41,071 bases of DNA from Deltaproteobacteria bacterium (lineage in GTDB: Bacteria; Desulfobacterota; GWC2-55-46; JAJCZF01), in assembly GCA_029262475.1 (NCBI GenBank), contig JAJCZG010000029.1:1-41071 (forward strand), in the 5' to 3' direction. The notes beneath the pieces are model-generated. The model worked only from the letters and a program-made list of their open reading frames with translations. It was not told the DNA's origin and made no database searches. Positions 31,076-41,071 of the stretch are shown one piece after another. Position numbers and translations under genes: made by a program. Every line of letters begins with the position of its first letter. Position 1 is the first letter of the stretch.

Positions 31076-31405
31076 CTACATCCTGAGCGGCAGCTCGAAC
31101 TCCCCCCGCCGCGACTGAGAAACCTTCATGCCGATAAACATCATATCCAGGACCATCTCCATCGCCTTCCTGTCGGCTGCCATGGTCACGCAGAGACCGA
31201 ACTCGTCGGCTATCCTTTGAATCTCCTCTACCGCCTCGTCCTTGTTAGTCGGTTTCAGGATCGTCAATATCTCGTCCATCGCATCCACAGCCTTCTTCTC
31301 CGGCTCCGGCCCCTCGAGTAGCGCCGCCTTCGCCTCTTCACCCGCTTTGTGGAGTTCTCCTGCCCGCTTAAGGTCTATCAGTTCGAATCTCAGCTTCTCA
31401 CTCAT
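31076..31405 (-). CDS. hypothetical helical early protein
   Basis: About 109 aa from ATG 31405, which overlaps the serine recombinase stop (ATGAGTGAG); a longer upstream frame exists but would lie in the recombinase gene. The sequence is helical and acidic (LRFELIDLKRAGELHKAGEE), with a Met-rich C-terminal part (MVLDMMFIGMKV). No motif identified; perhaps an accessory of the recombinase. Confidence 0.55.
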   Translation of the reverse strand: MSEKLRFELIDLKRAGELHKAGEEAKAALLEGPEPEKKAVDAMDEILTILKPTNKDEAVEEIQRIADEFGLCVTMAADRKAMEMVLDMMFIGMKVSQSRRGEFELPLRM

Positions 31406-32099
31406 TAGCCGCCTCCAGCCTCTCTTCGAAGGCCTCGACGACATTCTTTACCGTCTGCGCCGACCACTGCCCGCCCCTCTTCGCGGGGGTCCTCATATTG
31501 TTAAGGTCCGCAGCTATCGCCGAGTAGCCCCCGCCCTCGCCCCGCAGCTCCATAATCACCCGGATAGTATCCTGCTCCGCCTCGTTCTCCACGAGCACAC
31601 CGTCTACCGCGTTCCACCCGTAAGGGGGGTGGTTAAAGACGAGCCCCTGAGCCTTCTTGTGCTGGAGCGCCCCGATCGTCCGCTCGCTTATGAGGTTCCT
31701 CTCCATCTCAGCGCAGGCCGCCATGATAGTGAAGAAGAACTTCCCCATCGCCGACTGCGTGTCTATAGACTCGGTTACGCTGTGAAGCCCTACGCCGAGC
31801 TCTTTCAGGTCCTCGGAGACTCCGAGGGCCTCCTGCGCGTTTCTGAACATCCTGTCCAGCTTGTAGACTATTATCCCGTCTATGTGGCCGTTCTCTGCTG
31901 CGGCCAACGCCATCCTTACGCCCGGCCTCCCGTCTATGCTCTTCGCAGAAAAGCCCTCGTCCCTGACTATCTCCACCAGGTCGAAGTCGTGCAGGTCTGC
32001 ATAGGCCATGATCTTAGCCTTCTGTAGAGACAGGCTCACGCCCTTCTCGGCCTGACCTTCCGTCGACACCCTTATATATCCGAACGCTTTCTTTCTCAT
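31398..32099 (-). CDS. serine recombinase
   Basis: A 233-aa resolvase/invertase-type protein from ATG 32099, which follows GGAGGTCAGGAGAAT. The motif AFGYIRVSTEGQ places the nucleophile at S12; DRMFRNAQEA, GKFFFTIMAACAEMER and NLISERT hold the conserved Arg/Glu pattern. A short C-terminal DNA-binding region (GGYSAIAADLNNMRTPAKRGG) is present; it is shorter than large serine integrases. It could resolve dimers or invert a DNA segment; a substrate site was not located. The extra N-terminal frame from 32228 is repeat-derived. Confidence 0.85.
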   Translation of the reverse strand: MRKKAFGYIRVSTEGQAEKGVSLSLQKAKIMAYADLHDFDLVEIVRDEGFSAKSIDGRPGVRMALAAAENGHIDGIIVYKLDRMFRNAQEALGVSEDLKELGVGLHSVTESIDTQSAMGKFFFTIMAACAEMERNLISERTIGALQHKKAQGLVFNHPPYGWNAVDGVLVENEAEQDTIRVIMELRGEGGGYSAIAADLNNMRTPAKRGGQWSAQTVKNVVEAFEERLEAANE

Positions 32100-32150
32100 A
32101 TTCTCCTGACCTCCTTTAACCCCTTCGCCCCGTGCCGGTCTCCCCTGTGT

Positions 32151-32187
32151 CTCCCTCTCCCCCTGTGGGAGAGGGTTGGGTGAGGGG
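32151..32187. repeat. REP-like palindromic repeat
   Basis: A 9-bp perfect stem (CCCTCTCCC at 32153-32161 with GGGAGAGGG at 32167-32175) and the tail GGGTTGGGTGAGG, resembling the ubiquitous dispersed palindromic repeat found between genes in many proteobacteria. It lies in the gap upstream of the serine recombinase and appears to be an insertion, not part of the phage core. Confidence 0.6.
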
Positions 32188-32234
32188 TCCTTGCACGGAG
32201 CCCCGGGGCGGATAGAATGAAGGGACAAAGCGGC

Positions 32235-34062: not shown

Positions 34063-34632
34063 ATGAATAGAAATCTTACACCTAATCATTATAAAGACGC
34101 TGGGAAGCGTGTTGAGCTATTACGAGGCAAGCTCAATCAGACTGAATTTGCTAGTCTTTTTGAAGCCACACAGTCTGACATCAGTAGGATCGAAAACGGT
34201 AGCCTGAAAAAGCCTAACATTGACCTTTTAAGCAGAATTTGCATATATTATGGCAGGAATTTAGACTGGGCCTTCTACGGTGAAGGTGGCGAAGCTGAAG
34301 AAATATCCTACGCCGTCCCTGACGACTCAGGCCATGCAAGGACAGCAGAGGAGGCCGTATCGGCCTCCTACGGAGATCTCCGCGCCGAAGAAAAGGAATA
34401 CCTGGCAAAGCTCCTCTTGATCTTTCGGACAAAGGACAGGGGCACCAGGAGCGCAATAACGCAGAATATAGACACCTTCCTCAGGGTCCCGTCCAAAGAC
34501 GAATGTAAAGACGGGGATAACTGCGGGGAGGATAGCAAGCCTCCGGACGCAAAAGACGGAGGCAAGAGTACTCTACCAAAAAAAAGCGGCCCCAACTCGG
34601 ATTCACCCACCAAAGAAACAAAGGCCGTATAA
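34063..34632 (+). CDS. XRE-family prophage repressor
   Basis: A 189-aa protein. Residues about 10-70 form an XRE helix-turn-helix (RVELLRGKLNQTEFASLFEA; then QSDISRIENGSLKKPNIDLL). The C-terminal third is hydrophilic (KDECKDGDNCGEDSKPPD), with no LexA-type self-cleavage motif seen, so induction may work through an antirepressor. The ATG follows an AAGG 14 bases upstream, close to the operator repeats, suggesting autoregulation and a short leader. It is the likely CI. Confidence 0.75.
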   Translation: MNRNLTPNHYKDAGKRVELLRGKLNQTEFASLFEATQSDISRIENGSLKKPNIDLLSRICIYYGRNLDWAFYGEGGEAEEISYAVPDDSGHARTAEEAVSASYGDLRAEEKEYLAKLLLIFRTKDRGTRSAITQNIDTFLRVPSKDECKDGDNCGEDSKPPDAKDGGKSTLPKKSGPNSDSPTKETKAV

Positions 34633-35339: not shown

Positions 35340-35534
35340 ATGAAAAAAATTATATGCCCCAACCCTAAATGTGACTTCACTGGCAAACCGAGCAAAAAAG
35401 CCAGGGGTAGCACGCTGGTGGGTTTAATCTTGTGCCTCTTTTTCCTGCTGCCCGGGATAATCTATTTTATTTTTAAGAGCGGTTACCGGTATTACTGTCC
35501 GAATTGTGGAATACAGGTAGGCAATCAAAATTAA
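35340..35534 (+). CDS. zinc-ribbon membrane protein
   Basis: 64 aa: CPNPKCDFTG near the start, one membrane segment (VGLILCLFFLLPGIIYFIF, about 27-45), then YYCPNCGIQVGN. The two Cys pairs (C6, C11 and C53, C56) would meet on the cytoplasmic side of the membrane if the segment is a hairpin. This is a known layout for small stress or envelope proteins; the exact role is unknown. Confidence 0.65.
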   Translation: MKKIICPNPKCDFTGKPSKKARGSTLVGLILCLFFLLPGIIYFIFKSGYRYYCPNCGIQVGNQN

Positions 35535-35553: not shown

Positions 35554-35883
35554 TTGATACTCATCCCCCTCACCGCCTGGGCGGGGCATAAGCATCCCGA
35601 GCGTTACTACCAGGAGAGATGGTGCAATGAGGCCGAGGGAGTGATGGAGTACGTCCTGCCGGACAGATCGCGCGTAGACTGCCTTACGGATGAATATGCC
35701 GTGGAGGTAGACTTCGCACCGAAGTGGGCCGAGGCCATAGGGCAGGCTAAATATTATTCAAAAATGACAGGCCGCAAGCCCGGCATAGTGTTGATACTGG
35801 AAGAAGAGAAAGACCAACGCTACCTCGACCGCCTCAACCGCGCCATCGATGGCGAAGGGTTTACGATCTGGACGGTGAAGTAA
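35554..35883 (+). CDS. exported protein resembling PDDEXK nuclease
   Basis: 109 aa from TTG 35554. A signal-like start (ILIPLTAWAG) is followed by a compact domain: CNEAEGVMEYVLPDRSRVDC, LTDEYAVEVDFAPKWAEAIGQ, YYSKMTGRKPGIVLI. The D ... ExD and Q-x-x-Y spacing resembles a PDDEXK nuclease core with the Lys changed to Asp. The frame is open upstream through KINISVITL, which would complete the signal peptide, so the true start may be a rare ATT or ATC codon. Activity is uncertain. Confidence 0.55.
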   Translation: MILIPLTAWAGHKHPERYYQERWCNEAEGVMEYVLPDRSRVDCLTDEYAVEVDFAPKWAEAIGQAKYYSKMTGRKPGIVLILEEEKDQRYLDRLNRAIDGEGFTIWTVK

Positions 35884-36069: not shown

Positions 36070-36480
36070 ATGACCGATTTTTTGAGCCCGGAACAACGCA
36101 GCAAGCTGATGTCTCGTGTAAGAAGAAAGGACACTAACATTGAAAAAATCGTCCGCTCCGAACTTCATAAACGAGGCTTCAGATTCAGAAAACATGTCAA
36201 ATATCTTCCAGGCACCCCAGACTTGGTCTTTACTCGTATCAAGATAGCGGTCTTCCTGGATGGCGATTTCTGGCACGGCTATAGATTGCCGAAGTGGGAA
36301 CATAAACTTCAGTACTTCTGGAAGGATAAAATAAGGAAGAATAGAGAGCGTGACCAAAAGAATTTCAGAAAACTTCGTAGGATGGACTGGAAAGTCATAA
36401 GGATATGGCAACACGAAATTGAAAAAGATCTAGACTCTTGCGTTGAAAGAATCATTTCTGCTATCAACGAGAGAGTGTAG
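36070..36480 (+). CDS. vsr: Vsr-family DNA mismatch endonuclease
   Basis: A 136-aa Vsr fold. The conserved MSRVRRKDTNIEKIVRSELH start, PGTPDLVF (D51) and DGDFWHGYRLP (H69) match Vsr enzymes. Aligned with E. coli Vsr, D51 and H69 are kept, H64 is Asp (D64), and the zinc ligands C66, H71, C73 and C117 are replaced (D66, Y71, L73, and no Cys in the IWQHEIE segment). It may not need zinc. Vsr cuts near T-G mismatches from deaminated methyl-C and normally travels with a C5 methyltransferase, as here. Confidence 0.85.
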   Translation: MTDFLSPEQRSKLMSRVRRKDTNIEKIVRSELHKRGFRFRKHVKYLPGTPDLVFTRIKIAVFLDGDFWHGYRLPKWEHKLQYFWKDKIRKNRERDQKNFRKLRRMDWKVIRIWQHEIEKDLDSCVERIISAINERV

Positions 36481-36644
36481 ACCGGTCAAATATCTTGCTT
36501 CCCGAATAGCTATGCATGCGTTACAATAAAACTCACGGAGCATGAGTGGAGTGTCCGAGTTAGCCCCTCTCATGGTTGGCATAGAAAAACATAAAAGAAC
36601 CGGCTAGTTAACTCAATCTATTGCAAACTAATACAAGTGTGACT

Positions 36645-37685
36645 ATGTCAAAAAACATTAAAGCGATCGACTTTTTCTGTGGTGCTGGCGGCTTAACTCG
36701 TGGGTTGTTGAACTCTGGTATCGAAGTTTTAGCAGGGGTCGATAACGACGAAGGTCTTCGTACCACCTATGAGACGAACAATGCGCCTTCCAAGTTTCTC
36801 TGTGAAGATATCAATGAAATTGACATCCTGTCGTTACGTAAAGAGTTAAGCGTTTCAGATAAAGACTTCGTTCTTTATGCCGCATGTACGCCATGCCAGC
36901 CTTTCTCCACACTCAATCGGATGGAAGGCAAGGATGAACGTAAATATTTATTGTTATCTTTTGCTGAGCTTGTCAGGCAGGCGCCACCCGACTTCTTGAT
37001 TGTAGAGAATGTCCCAGGCTTGAACAATGCTTACGGGAAAGAAATTTATGAAGAGTTTATCGATACGATTTCAGAGAGTGGCTTCAATGACATTTTCGCC
37101 GACTTCCTTGACGTTAAAGACTACGGCGTACCTCAAAGAAGGAAAAGATTTATTCTACTAAGCAGTAGACACGGCAAAATATCTCCACCAAAGGTAAGCG
37201 ACAAAGTATCAACCGTCGCCGATTACATTAAGAAATATCATCCTATCAAACATGGTGAATCGTCCAAGAGAATAGTTAACCATGTTGCAAGGAAACTACA
37301 ACCGCACCACCTGAAAATAGTGAAAGCAGTTCCCAAGAACGGTGGCAGCCGTAGCGACATTAAAGATACCTCTATTTTATTGAAATGCCACCAGAAAAAA
37401 CCAAAAGTACATAAAGATGTCTTTGGAAGAATGGCATGGGACTTACCCGCGCCAACATTGACTTGCCGATGCACGGATATATACTGTGGACGATTCATTC
37501 ATCCGACTCAAGACAGAGGTATATCTTTACGTGAGGCTGCCGCCATACAGACTTTTCCTGACGATTATGAGTTTTTCGGAAAATTTATTCATATCGCTCG
37601 ACAAATAGGCAATGCGGTACCCGTGAAATTTGCTCAAAGACTCGGTGAGACTATAGTCTCTTCATATGCAAATAAAGGAATTTGA
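36645..37685 (+). CDS. dcm: DNA (cytosine-5) methyltransferase
   Basis: 346 aa from ATG 36645; an earlier TTG adds 8 residues without a ribosome site. Motif I DFFCGAGGLTRG (9-20), motif IV CTPCQPFS with catalytic C84, motif VI FLIVENVPG (E121), motif VIII VPQRRKRF, a target domain of about 110 residues (185-300), motif IX REAAAIQTFP and motif X QIGNAVPV are all present. It methylates cytosine C5 at an unknown target. It lies between the Vsr gene and the GHKL-nuclease gene on one strand. Confidence 0.9.
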   Translation: MSKNIKAIDFFCGAGGLTRGLLNSGIEVLAGVDNDEGLRTTYETNNAPSKFLCEDINEIDILSLRKELSVSDKDFVLYAACTPCQPFSTLNRMEGKDERKYLLLSFAELVRQAPPDFLIVENVPGLNNAYGKEIYEEFIDTISESGFNDIFADFLDVKDYGVPQRRKRFILLSSRHGKISPPKVSDKVSTVADYIKKYHPIKHGESSKRIVNHVARKLQPHHLKIVKAVPKNGGSRSDIKDTSILLKCHQKKPKVHKDVFGRMAWDLPAPTLTCRCTDIYCGRFIHPTQDRGISLREAAAIQTFPDDYEFFGKFIHIARQIGNAVPVKFAQRLGETIVSSYANKGI

Positions 37686-37687
37686 TC

Positions 37688-39607
37688 ATGTCTGTGAAAG
37701 ACTTTAAAATGCTATTTGATATAGGGACGATTAAGCACTTAGGTATTCATATGTATTCGACCCTTCCTCCGGTGATCGGCGAACTGGTATCAAACGCATG
37801 GGATGCGGATACGGAGGTTGTTGAAATCACGATCCCTGACGGACCACTTAACGACGACTCTGAGATTGTCGTATATGACAATGGTTGTGGAATGTCGGAC
37901 GAGGAGGTGCGCCTAGCTTACCTTATTGTCGGTCGAGACAGGAGAAAAGACGACGATGACGCACCAACTGCAAAATATGGCCGGGCTGTAATGGGAAGAA
38001 AAGGTATCGGTAAATTCTCGGCTTTTGGCATCGCCAGCGAAATAGAAATTGAGACCGTAAAGGAAGGGAAAACTTCCAGGTTTATTATGAATTATGAAGA
38101 GCTGGAGAAGTATGCTGAGAAGCGTGAGTACTTAATGCCTCCTCTTGAGGCGAGCGGAAAAGTAAAAACAGGGACCAAGATCACTCTACGCAATATTAAT
38201 AAGTATAGAAGTAGAAGTATCTCCGTTCCGAATTTGAGGCGAGGGCTCGCCAGACGGTTCTCTATTATTGCCGAGGAGAAAAACTTTGCCGTATCAATTA
38301 ACGGTAAGAAGATAACACTTGAAGAGAGAGACCTGCAAAGGTCGCTAGATCTTGACACAGATGGGAACAAATACCTGTGGGAAATAAATGACGAAGAAAT
38401 CAAGCCTGAGACAGGCTGGACCGTGAAAGGATGGATAGGTGCCCTAAAACGTACGGACTCTGCGGGAGACGATATTCAACGTGGCATAGTAATCATGGCG
38501 CGTGGGAAATTGGTTCAAGAACCGTTTGTTTTCGATGCAACGGTAGGGCAACAATATGCTCTCTCGTACTTGGTCGGGGAACTTCACGCCGAATTCGTTG
38601 ATGCTTCGGAAGACACCATTGGAACGACAAGAAATTGCTTGGTATGGGATACGGACAGGAACAGCGCATTTAAGGAGTGGGGGGAAAAGAAGGTTAATAA
38701 AATTGCTAGAGAATGGGCAGAGAAAAGAAAAAAGGATAACGAGAAAAAGTTGAAAGAAAACTCTTTCTATCTGACGTTCTCCGACAAAGCGAAAGAATTT
38801 GAGAATAGAAGGTCCGTTAAGATTGCCGACAAATTGATCAGAGAGGTGGCGGTCAACAACCCTTTGGCTGAGGACAAAGAAATGGCCTCGGTAGTTACTA
38901 TGTGTTTAAACTTCCTAGAGTTTGACGCTTTTCGTGAGTTGTCCGAGGACTTGATGGAGTCCGATTTAGAAGAAGTGGCGCGTATCGTTGACTTATTCAA
39001 GGAGTGGGAGATAGTCGAAGCCAAAGAGATGATGCGCGTAACCGAAGGACGAATAAATACGATAGAGAAACTTCAAAACTTGATAGACGGAAACGCATTG
39101 GAGGTACCTACTCTCCACAACTTTCTGAAAGAATTCCCGTGGGTTCTGGATCCTCGTTGGACTTTGGTTGAGGACGAAGTCAGGTATAGCGACTTGTTAA
39201 GAGAAAAATTTCCAGAAAGTAACGAAATCCCTGAGAAAGACAGGCGTATAGATTTTCTCTGTGTCGCTGAAAGCAATAGCGTAATAGTTGTCGAAATAAA
39301 ACGTCCAAAATTTAAGGCTTCGAAAAAAGAGCTGCTGCAGTTAGAAGAATATGTGCTCTTTATGCGTGACCATATTACTCAATCAACAGACCCCTCCGTA
39401 AGGAAGGATGAAGTTATAGGGTACTTGTTATGTGGTGAACTTGTGGATACTAGCTTCGTAAGAGAAAAACGAAAAACTTTCACAAAAGACAATATTTTCA
39501 TAAGGCTCTATAGCGATTTATTGAAAATGGTCAAAGACAACCATAAGGAATTTCTGAACAGGTATATCAAACTAAGTGAAGCCAAAAAAAAAGCGCTTCA
39601 ACCCTAG
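37688..39607 (+). CDS. GHKL ATPase fused to C-terminal PDDEXK nuclease
   Basis: A 639-aa protein from ATG 37688 (AAAGGA before it). Residues 1-200 are a Bergerat/GHKL ATPase: ELVSNAWDAD (E32, N36), DNGCGM (64-69) and GRKGIGK (103-109). A long helical middle (330-500) follows. The C-terminal part has D522, VVEIK (E536, K538) and Q551-L-E-E-Y, a PDDEXK nuclease core of the DUF4263/Shedu-like kind. MORC/MutL-like GHKL ATPases are known to associate with restriction-modification genes. It probably cuts DNA in an ATP-gated way, with the C5 methylase as protection. The Dcm stop overlaps its leader. Confidence 0.8.
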   Translation: MSVKDFKMLFDIGTIKHLGIHMYSTLPPVIGELVSNAWDADTEVVEITIPDGPLNDDSEIVVYDNGCGMSDEEVRLAYLIVGRDRRKDDDDAPTAKYGRAVMGRKGIGKFSAFGIASEIEIETVKEGKTSRFIMNYEELEKYAEKREYLMPPLEASGKVKTGTKITLRNINKYRSRSISVPNLRRGLARRFSIIAEEKNFAVSINGKKITLEERDLQRSLDLDTDGNKYLWEINDEEIKPETGWTVKGWIGALKRTDSAGDDIQRGIVIMARGKLVQEPFVFDATVGQQYALSYLVGELHAEFVDASEDTIGTTRNCLVWDTDRNSAFKEWGEKKVNKIAREWAEKRKKDNEKKLKENSFYLTFSDKAKEFENRRSVKIADKLIREVAVNNPLAEDKEMASVVTMCLNFLEFDAFRELSEDLMESDLEEVARIVDLFKEWEIVEAKEMMRVTEGRINTIEKLQNLIDGNALEVPTLHNFLKEFPWVLDPRWTLVEDEVRYSDLLREKFPESNEIPEKDRRIDFLCVAESNSVIVVEIKRPKFKASKKELLQLEEYVLFMRDHITQSTDPSVRKDEVIGYLLCGELVDTSFVREKRKTFTKDNIFIRLYSDLLKMVKDNHKEFLNRYIKLSEAKKKALQP

Positions 39608-39729: not shown

Positions 39730-40866
39730 GTGCCCCACCTCTACTCACATAAAAGCTCCGGCTGGCGCGTACACTATCGCGTCTACTTCTCCGACGGCAC
39801 CCATGTCGATAAGGCCCGCTACGCAAAGCAGAAGGCCAAGGCGGGCCTCATCCTGCGCGAGGCAGGCACGCTGGAAGATCTCTCCAGGCGCGGCACCGTT
39901 ACTAACGACGAGATCGTCTTCTTCATCAACCAGAAATATATCACACCCGAAGAAGCCGGCGACATCCTCTCCGGAGCGCAGGGGCTGGCACTTACATGGA
40001 CGGAGCTCGAAAACAAGTACGCCGACTACTCGCGCCTCAATTGCACCACCTATACCCACTCATGCAATATTAGTAGGCTGAAGACAATCCTTGAGCATTT
40101 CACGCCGGACCGAATTCCCTCCGGCGTTACGGAAACGGATGTTGAGGACTACCTGAAGGAACGGAGCAGCCTGGTTAAGAGCGCGACCCTCAACAAAGAG
40201 CTCCACATTCTCCGCCGCCTGCTGGACCCGCTTGGCGATAAGAACCCGGCGCGGAAAGTAAAACCGCCGAAGATCAAGGAAGAGAGGGTACCAAGGCCGC
40301 TATGGGACGAAGAGATACTTCCCCTCATGAAAGCCCTCAGAAGCCATCGTAAGGGTCTCAGGGGCTACTTCAGGGCCATGGCATTGACCAGCCTCTACAC
40401 CGGAGCGAGGCCTTCCGAGGTGGTATCTCTCACGCGCAAGGATGTAAACCTCGATGCAGGCAGGATACATATCCAGGCGAAGGACGGCTATACGACCAAG
40501 ACAGGCAAGGCCCGGAGCCTCGATATTCACCCCAAGCTTGCTGTCCACCTGCGGGTATGCTTGAGAAAGGGAGGTAAATATCTCTTCGGAGGTGATCGGG
40601 CTCAGCTCTCCAAGTCCTTTATAAGACTCCTCCGCATGACAATGAAGGAAGCCGAACTCGATGGAGTTACGCCTTACTCCCTGCGCCATACCTTTATCAC
40701 GAGACTACTTAAAACAGGAGCGGGGCTGCCCTACGTCATGGAGGCGGCTGGCCATAGAAGACTGGCCACCACTACCAGGTACCTGCACGTCATCCCGTCC
40801 GACGACTCCCCGCTCAGGAGAATGAGCCTGAAGGCAGCACGGGAGCAGGCAAAACGAACACCATAA
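39730..40866 (+). CDS. int: phage integrase (tyrosine recombinase)
   Basis: A 378-aa integrase. The N-terminal arm-binding region (HLYSHKSSGWRVHYRVYF) precedes a core-binding domain (90-180) and a catalytic domain: R227 (TGARPSE), K260, R319 in PYSLRHTF (where the usual first His is Tyr316), H342 (AGHRR) and the nucleophile Y351 (TTTRYLHV). The start is GTG 39730 after GGCGGGGA. It lies next to tRNA-Glu, so that tRNA's 3' end is the likely attachment site. Downstream repeats resemble arm sites. Confidence 0.9.
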   Translation: MPHLYSHKSSGWRVHYRVYFSDGTHVDKARYAKQKAKAGLILREAGTLEDLSRRGTVTNDEIVFFINQKYITPEEAGDILSGAQGLALTWTELENKYADYSRLNCTTYTHSCNISRLKTILEHFTPDRIPSGVTETDVEDYLKERSSLVKSATLNKELHILRRLLDPLGDKNPARKVKPPKIKEERVPRPLWDEEILPLMKALRSHRKGLRGYFRAMALTSLYTGARPSEVVSLTRKDVNLDAGRIHIQAKDGYTTKTGKARSLDIHPKLAVHLRVCLRKGGKYLFGGDRAQLSKSFIRLLRMTMKEAELDGVTPYSLRHTFITRLLKTGAGLPYVMEAAGHRRLATTTRYLHVIPSDDSPLRRMSLKAAREQAKRTP

Positions 40867-40928: not shown

Positions 40929-41036
40929 CACTTTTGGGCGGGTACCCCCACATAAAACCACCATGTTCCGGGCAAAAAAATAGCCGCAACCACATGACTT
41001 CATTGAAAAGTCAAACAATTACAGCTACTTAAATTT

Positions 41037-41071
41037 TGGCGTCCCCAAGGGGAGTCGAACCCCTGTTGCCG
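41037..41071 (-). tRNA. tRNA-Glu, 3' part, and likely attachment site
   Basis: Read on the minus strand, the sequence gives a T-arm (AGGGG TTCGACT CCCCT), a 3' acceptor strand TGGGGAC, discriminator G and encoded CCA. It matches bacterial tRNA-Glu (5' GTCCCCA). The anticodon half lies beyond the window. The adjacent integrase makes this 3' end the probable attachment site. Confidence 0.85.

Follow-up and report, generated by a model that had tools for sequence, protein, structure and literature searches.

A phage-borne Vsr, C5 methyltransferase and GHKL ATPase-nuclease operon as a probable, divergent Type II restriction-modification system

The fusion of a GHKL ATPase to a nuclease has been on record since the description of paraMORC3, in which GHKL, S5 and RE-fold nuclease domains are joined in one protein, and the gene neighbourhoods of the MORC and paraMORC families include both cytosine methylases and Vsr nucleases (Iyer, Abhiman and Aravind 2008, PMC2292703). 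A standalone paraMORC3, VcSduA (Shedu type I-D), was reported in 2025 to provide phage defence alone, with the ATPase and the nuclease residues both needed (PMC12137116). On the side of modification, M.HgiDII is a characterised m5C methylase of GTCGAC and M.BbrUII is likewise a characterised m5C methylase (PMC5867850). Among phages, KL3 carries an EcoRII-C, Vsr and EcoRII methylase module in the order R-V-M (PMC3091744), and the P2-like Escherichia phage PhiR44_1 (PV340563) combines a ParaMORC3 fusion with a Dcm C5 methylase. Here we compare these systems with a three-gene module found in the window, by which we mean the whole stretch of DNA analysed, a single complete contig of 41,071 nucleotides from a deltaproteobacterium. 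We read the module as a Type II restriction-modification system that is carried by a prophage and brings along a gene for very short patch repair, and put the probability of this reading at about 0.8. It is a divergent case of an arrangement already described and common in other phages, in which the only new elements are the deep position of the fusion within its family and a target left unassigned by the family match.

As the preliminary description of this DNA had it, the module consists of three co-oriented genes on the plus strand, all with intact open reading frames, for a Vsr-family endonuclease, a full C5 methyltransferase and a 639-aa fusion protein, at the positions given in Table 1. 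The methylase frame opens at an alternative TTG (36621), the ATG at 36645 being the likelier start, and the ATG of the fusion lies 2 bp past the methylase stop codon, so that the linked methylase and nuclease genes which a Type II system requires are present. With KL3 the window shares a module of nuclease, Vsr and C5 methylase carried by a temperate phage, but the KL3 nuclease is unrelated to the fusion and has no ATPase domain; with PhiR44_1 it shares the fusion and a C5 methylase, whereas the methylase of that phage lies downstream on the opposite strand and is not accompanied by Vsr.

Table 1. Features of the module and its surroundings in the window.
Feature	Position	Strand	Evidence
Vsr-family endonuclease, 136 aa	36070..36480	+	TIGR00632 over cut-off, PF03852, 1cw0
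C5 cytosine methyltransferase, 346 aa from ATG	36645..37685	+	PF00145, TIGR00675 over cut-off
GHKL ATPase-PD-(D/E)XK nuclease fusion, 639 aa, predicted restriction enzyme	37688..39607	+	NF050001, PADLOC REase_II
GHKL (Bergerat) ATPase domain, residues about 1-210	37688..38317	+	HATPase_c_3
PD-(D/E)XK nuclease domain, residues about 455-639	39050..39604	+	Conserved residues, model fold match
HTH regulator, probable prophage repressor	34063..34632	+	HTH_3 E 1e-5
Prophage tyrosine integrase adjoining module	39730..40866	+	PF00589 E 6e-22
Right attachment end, 38 bp	41034..41071	+	Identical to tRNA-Glu 3' end, contig C43

Carriage by a prophage, also claimed at the outset, is borne out by minus-strand genes for phage tail, head, portal, terminase and primase in the window, by the adjacent tyrosine integrase and by the last 38 bases, whose identity to the 3' end of a tRNA-Glu gene elsewhere in the same genome means that integration probably took place at that tRNA; the left junction of the prophage lies outside the window. 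The module sits between the HTH regulator and the integrase and does not share the strand of the structural genes, and its G+C content is about 43-46%, against about 53-59% in most of the phage core. The interval between regulator and integrase, at the lysogeny end, is the usual site of cargo genes in prophages. It could nevertheless be supposed that the module serves the lytic cycle, with the nuclease degrading host or rival DNA and the methylase shielding the phage genome, as was proposed for the phage-borne three-gene module of KL3 (PMC3091744). This we hold to be highly improbable, since the methylase of a lysogen would also modify the host chromosome, the location and strand of the module are those of typical cargo, and homologues of the fusion are found on plasmids and chromosomes as well. 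As a restriction-modification system, the module would instead benefit the lysogen by excluding other phages and would help to retain the prophage.

An Rfam search gave no match, and promoter matches did not rise above those in shuffled sequences. The prophage also encodes, besides the tyrosine integrase, a second, serine-recombinase-like protein (31398-32228, minus strand; phrog_95 integrase, E 4e-70). Just upstream of the module a 109-aa open reading frame (35554-35883, plus strand) has no family match, and its stretch VDCLTDEYAVEVDF resembles, by eye, a small PD-(D/E)XK-type core; the 64-aa product of 35340-35534 (plus strand) has a hydrophobic stretch and a zinc ribbon resembling that of LITAF (26.5 bits, cut-off 23.8).

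The proposed joining of a Bergerat ATPase to a PDDEXK nuclease holds for both halves of the fusion. The ATPase half matches HATPase_c_3 at 71 bits (cut-off 25), and its residues E32, N36, D64, G66, G68, G103, G106, G108 and K109 are invariant in all 42 aligned sequences. An AlphaFold model of the full protein (pLDDT 82) matches TRAP1 and MORC2 in its N-terminal part over about 370-430 columns, running past the ATPase domain into the region where an S5-like domain is expected. For the nuclease half, the SduA_C (DUF4263) profile scores 23.0 bits, below its gathering cut-off of 27, and is matched by 6 of the 42 aligned sequences at E 0.001, while a profile built from this half points weakly to the folds of EndoMS/NucS and SduA; the same folds are returned when a model of residues 455-639 (mean pLDDT 87) is compared with the PDB (EndoMS/NucS, E 2e-6; Shedu SduA, E 2e-5). 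The C-terminal half is thus predicted to be a PD-(D/E)XK nuclease, an assignment weak by sequence but clear by modelled structure. All 42 sequences have E472, D522 and E536 in this domain, and the position of K538 is a lysine in 37 of them and methionine in five, in keeping with the choice of E32 and K538 as key residues in the preliminary description. The five methionine-bearing sequences, in which the D and E remain invariant, belong to alignment A4; L023 and L035 in alignment A1 also have methionine in this column, and migration of the catalytic lysine of the ExK motif is possible in such proteins.

In these respects the fusion shows the GHKL catalytic motifs and the C-terminal RE-fold nuclease, with E-D-ExK, of paraMORC3, differing in that no helicase gene belongs to the set in the window. 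It likewise shares with VcSduA an N-terminal GHKL ATPase and a C-terminal PD-(D/E)XK nuclease, and E32 and K538 have their functional counterparts in E27 and K557 of that protein. Over its full length the fusion matches the BbrUII/HgiDII restriction enzymes: residues 6-631 align to positions 1-650 of the 659 in NF050001 (E 2e-111), a family matched by all 42 alignment members, and in PADLOC the fusion matches REase_II, a Type II restriction enzyme class (E 6e-53). The window thus has in common with this family a full-length GHKL-nuclease match and an adjacent C5 methylase, but it departs from it in a score (373.6 bits) under the equivalog cut-off of 550, in an identity of at most 33% to any relative found, and in the recognition domain of its methylase. 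The link between GHKL/MORC-like ATPases and restriction-modification genes to which the preliminary description pointed is indeed in the literature, for cytosine methylases and Vsr alike (PMC2292703). By contrast, the suggestion that this set of genes might be uncharacterised does not survive the NF050001 family, the PADLOC Type II class, the paraMORC3 description of 2008 and the recurrence of the gene order elsewhere. The module is a small example, carried by a phage, of a large family whose restriction enzymes incorporate a MutL/MORC-like ATPase.

Relatives were gathered through the fusion, by tblastn against plasmids and phages, from whole genomes and by a profile search of IMG/VR, which gave 158 confirmed matches, of which 80 were kept. 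The profile search was needed because single-sequence searches were nearly empty, those for close relatives of all three proteins in viral contigs finding none and that for the fusion in genome contigs one partial match only. One weak fusion locus (L045) entered through the methylase search, and nearly all others through the fusion alone. The preliminary description had let its proposal depend on homologues of the fusion occurring beside methylases; they do so, for in 96 of 104 loci, the window not being counted, a C5 methylase lies no more than 2.5 kb from the fusion, and 88 of 99 methylase matches lie within 100 bp of it. Methylase and Vsr occur together in 20 of the 104 loci, and the exact order Vsr-methylase-fusion on one strand recurs in three viral contigs (L071, L120 and L125). 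De-replication at 80% identity and the exclusion of short rows left 67 rows, the window among them: the fusion is accompanied by a methylase in 43 and by Vsr alone in 2, both genes are present in 17, and neither is in 5.

In a quick tree of the fusion, the window forms a lone deep branch of clade A (25 rows, support 99), while two sequences over the NF050001 cut-off, L031 and L032, fall in the other half, clade B. The methylases differ accordingly: nearly all those of clade B bear the recognition signature GGxW, with counts slightly low there because an earlier GG was used to score a few rows, and all 22 of clade A lack it, among which 11, the window's included, carry GGxR. That methylase type tracks the fusion clade is as expected of pairs inherited together, although such joint inheritance is no proof of a common target. 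Since recognition type differs between the clades, the GTCGAC target should not be carried over to the window. Its assignment on the strength of the family name was rejected, the score of the fusion being below the cut-off and the methylase recognition domain of another type; GTCGAC occurs 6 times in the window against 10 expected, a difference too weak to gauge site avoidance.

The main uncertainty concerns the dependence of the fusion on the methylase, because VcSduA works alone and because the sequence with the highest identity to the window fusion in the tree (L046, 32%) lies on a viral contig with neither methylase nor Vsr nearby, so that some close forms may also act by themselves. One could accordingly picture the fusion as a standalone nuclease akin to Shedu type I-D, under the control of its ATPase and of DNA ends or phage signals, with the methylase as an independent neighbour. 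VcSduA lends this picture its architecture, its self-sufficient defence and its need for both domains (PMC12137116), and the nuclease fold does match SduA, yet the score for SduA_C is below the cut-off, the fusion is accompanied by methylase and Vsr, and the frequency with which the methylase adjoins the fusion, the 2-bp spacing in the window and the agreement of methylase type with fusion clade all speak against an independent neighbour. We regard this alternative as very unlikely.

Under the restriction-modification reading, the methylase would modify a cytosine within one target and so protect host and prophage DNA, and the fusion would be the restriction enzyme that cuts the same target when it is unmethylated. 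The methylase itself has a strong family assignment (PF00145, E 7e-54; TIGR00675 over cut-off), its PCQ, ENV and Q-R-R motifs are invariant, and one further C5 methylase gene is present elsewhere in this genome. That the methylase should mark self DNA and the ATPase-nuclease attack unmodified DNA, as first proposed, appears well supported by genomic context and family membership. What the sequence itself shows is which genes these are, that their catalytic residues are intact, that their neighbourhood is conserved and that they lie in a prophage, whereas cleavage, a common target, the role of the ATPase, repair and defence are inferred. Within the fusion, the C-terminal PD-(D/E)XK domain would act as the blade, and the GHKL ATPase at the N terminus would dimerise and form a clamp under ATP control. 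Ordinary Type II restriction enzymes are ATP-independent, and we found no literature report on the role of ATP in this restriction-enzyme family. A more specific, and tentative, version, on balance doubtful, is that closure of the clamp on DNA licenses the nuclease at a target other than GTCGAC; if true, such ATP gating would separate this branch from ordinary Type II enzymes. A methylase-nuclease-Vsr operon on a prophage is a convenient system in which to ask what the ATPase does.

Several loci met in the survey combine related genes differently. Close relatives of the window's methylase in L042 and L043 have a HEPN-like nuclease and a DUF262 protein as partners in place of the GHKL fusion. 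L031, L032 and L038 are strong NF050001 members with an adjacent Vsr and no detected C5 methylase, and large open reading frames beside them resemble, as judged by eye, DISARM-type (DrmB-like) proteins; on a Deinococcus plasmid, fusion, methylase and Vsr occur together with annotated DISARM genes.

The Vsr gene, the sole one found in this genome, scores 123.9 bits against TIGR00632 (cut-off 97.85), with further matches to PF03852 (E 2e-24) and 1cw0 (E 1e-17). Its product keeps E25, D51 and H69, which act in catalysis in E. coli Vsr, as well as M14, F67 and W68 and a W84 aligned with W86 of E. coli, the four residues that intercalate at the mismatch in that enzyme. Position 64 is D and not H, and the H/C zinc ligands of E. 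coli Vsr are absent; for both reasons the chemistry may differ from that of the E. coli enzyme. Judged from sequence, the likeliest role is the repair of T:G mismatches at the methylase target, in which Vsr would nick the mismatches arising from deamination of the methylated cytosine; the three-gene module of phage KL3 is a precedent for this reading (PMC3091744). The loss of the zinc ligands and of H64, together with the adjacency of Vsr to fusions lacking a detected C5 methylase in L031, L032 and L038, would also fit a second DNA-cutting effector in place of a repair enzyme, a substitution that touches this one step and may leave the rest standing. With the full TIGR00632 match over cut-off and the mismatch-intercalating residues kept, we think it unlikely. 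Within the defence unit of three genes that was originally envisaged, Vsr is less likely to take part in the attack than to serve the methylase by repair. The operon is also suited to asking by what means phages counter the mutational burden of cytosine methylation. The combination of D64, missing E. coli-type zinc ligands and retained intercalating residues defines a Vsr subgroup that comprises, besides the window, L028 (7264-7677) and L035 (4586-5035).
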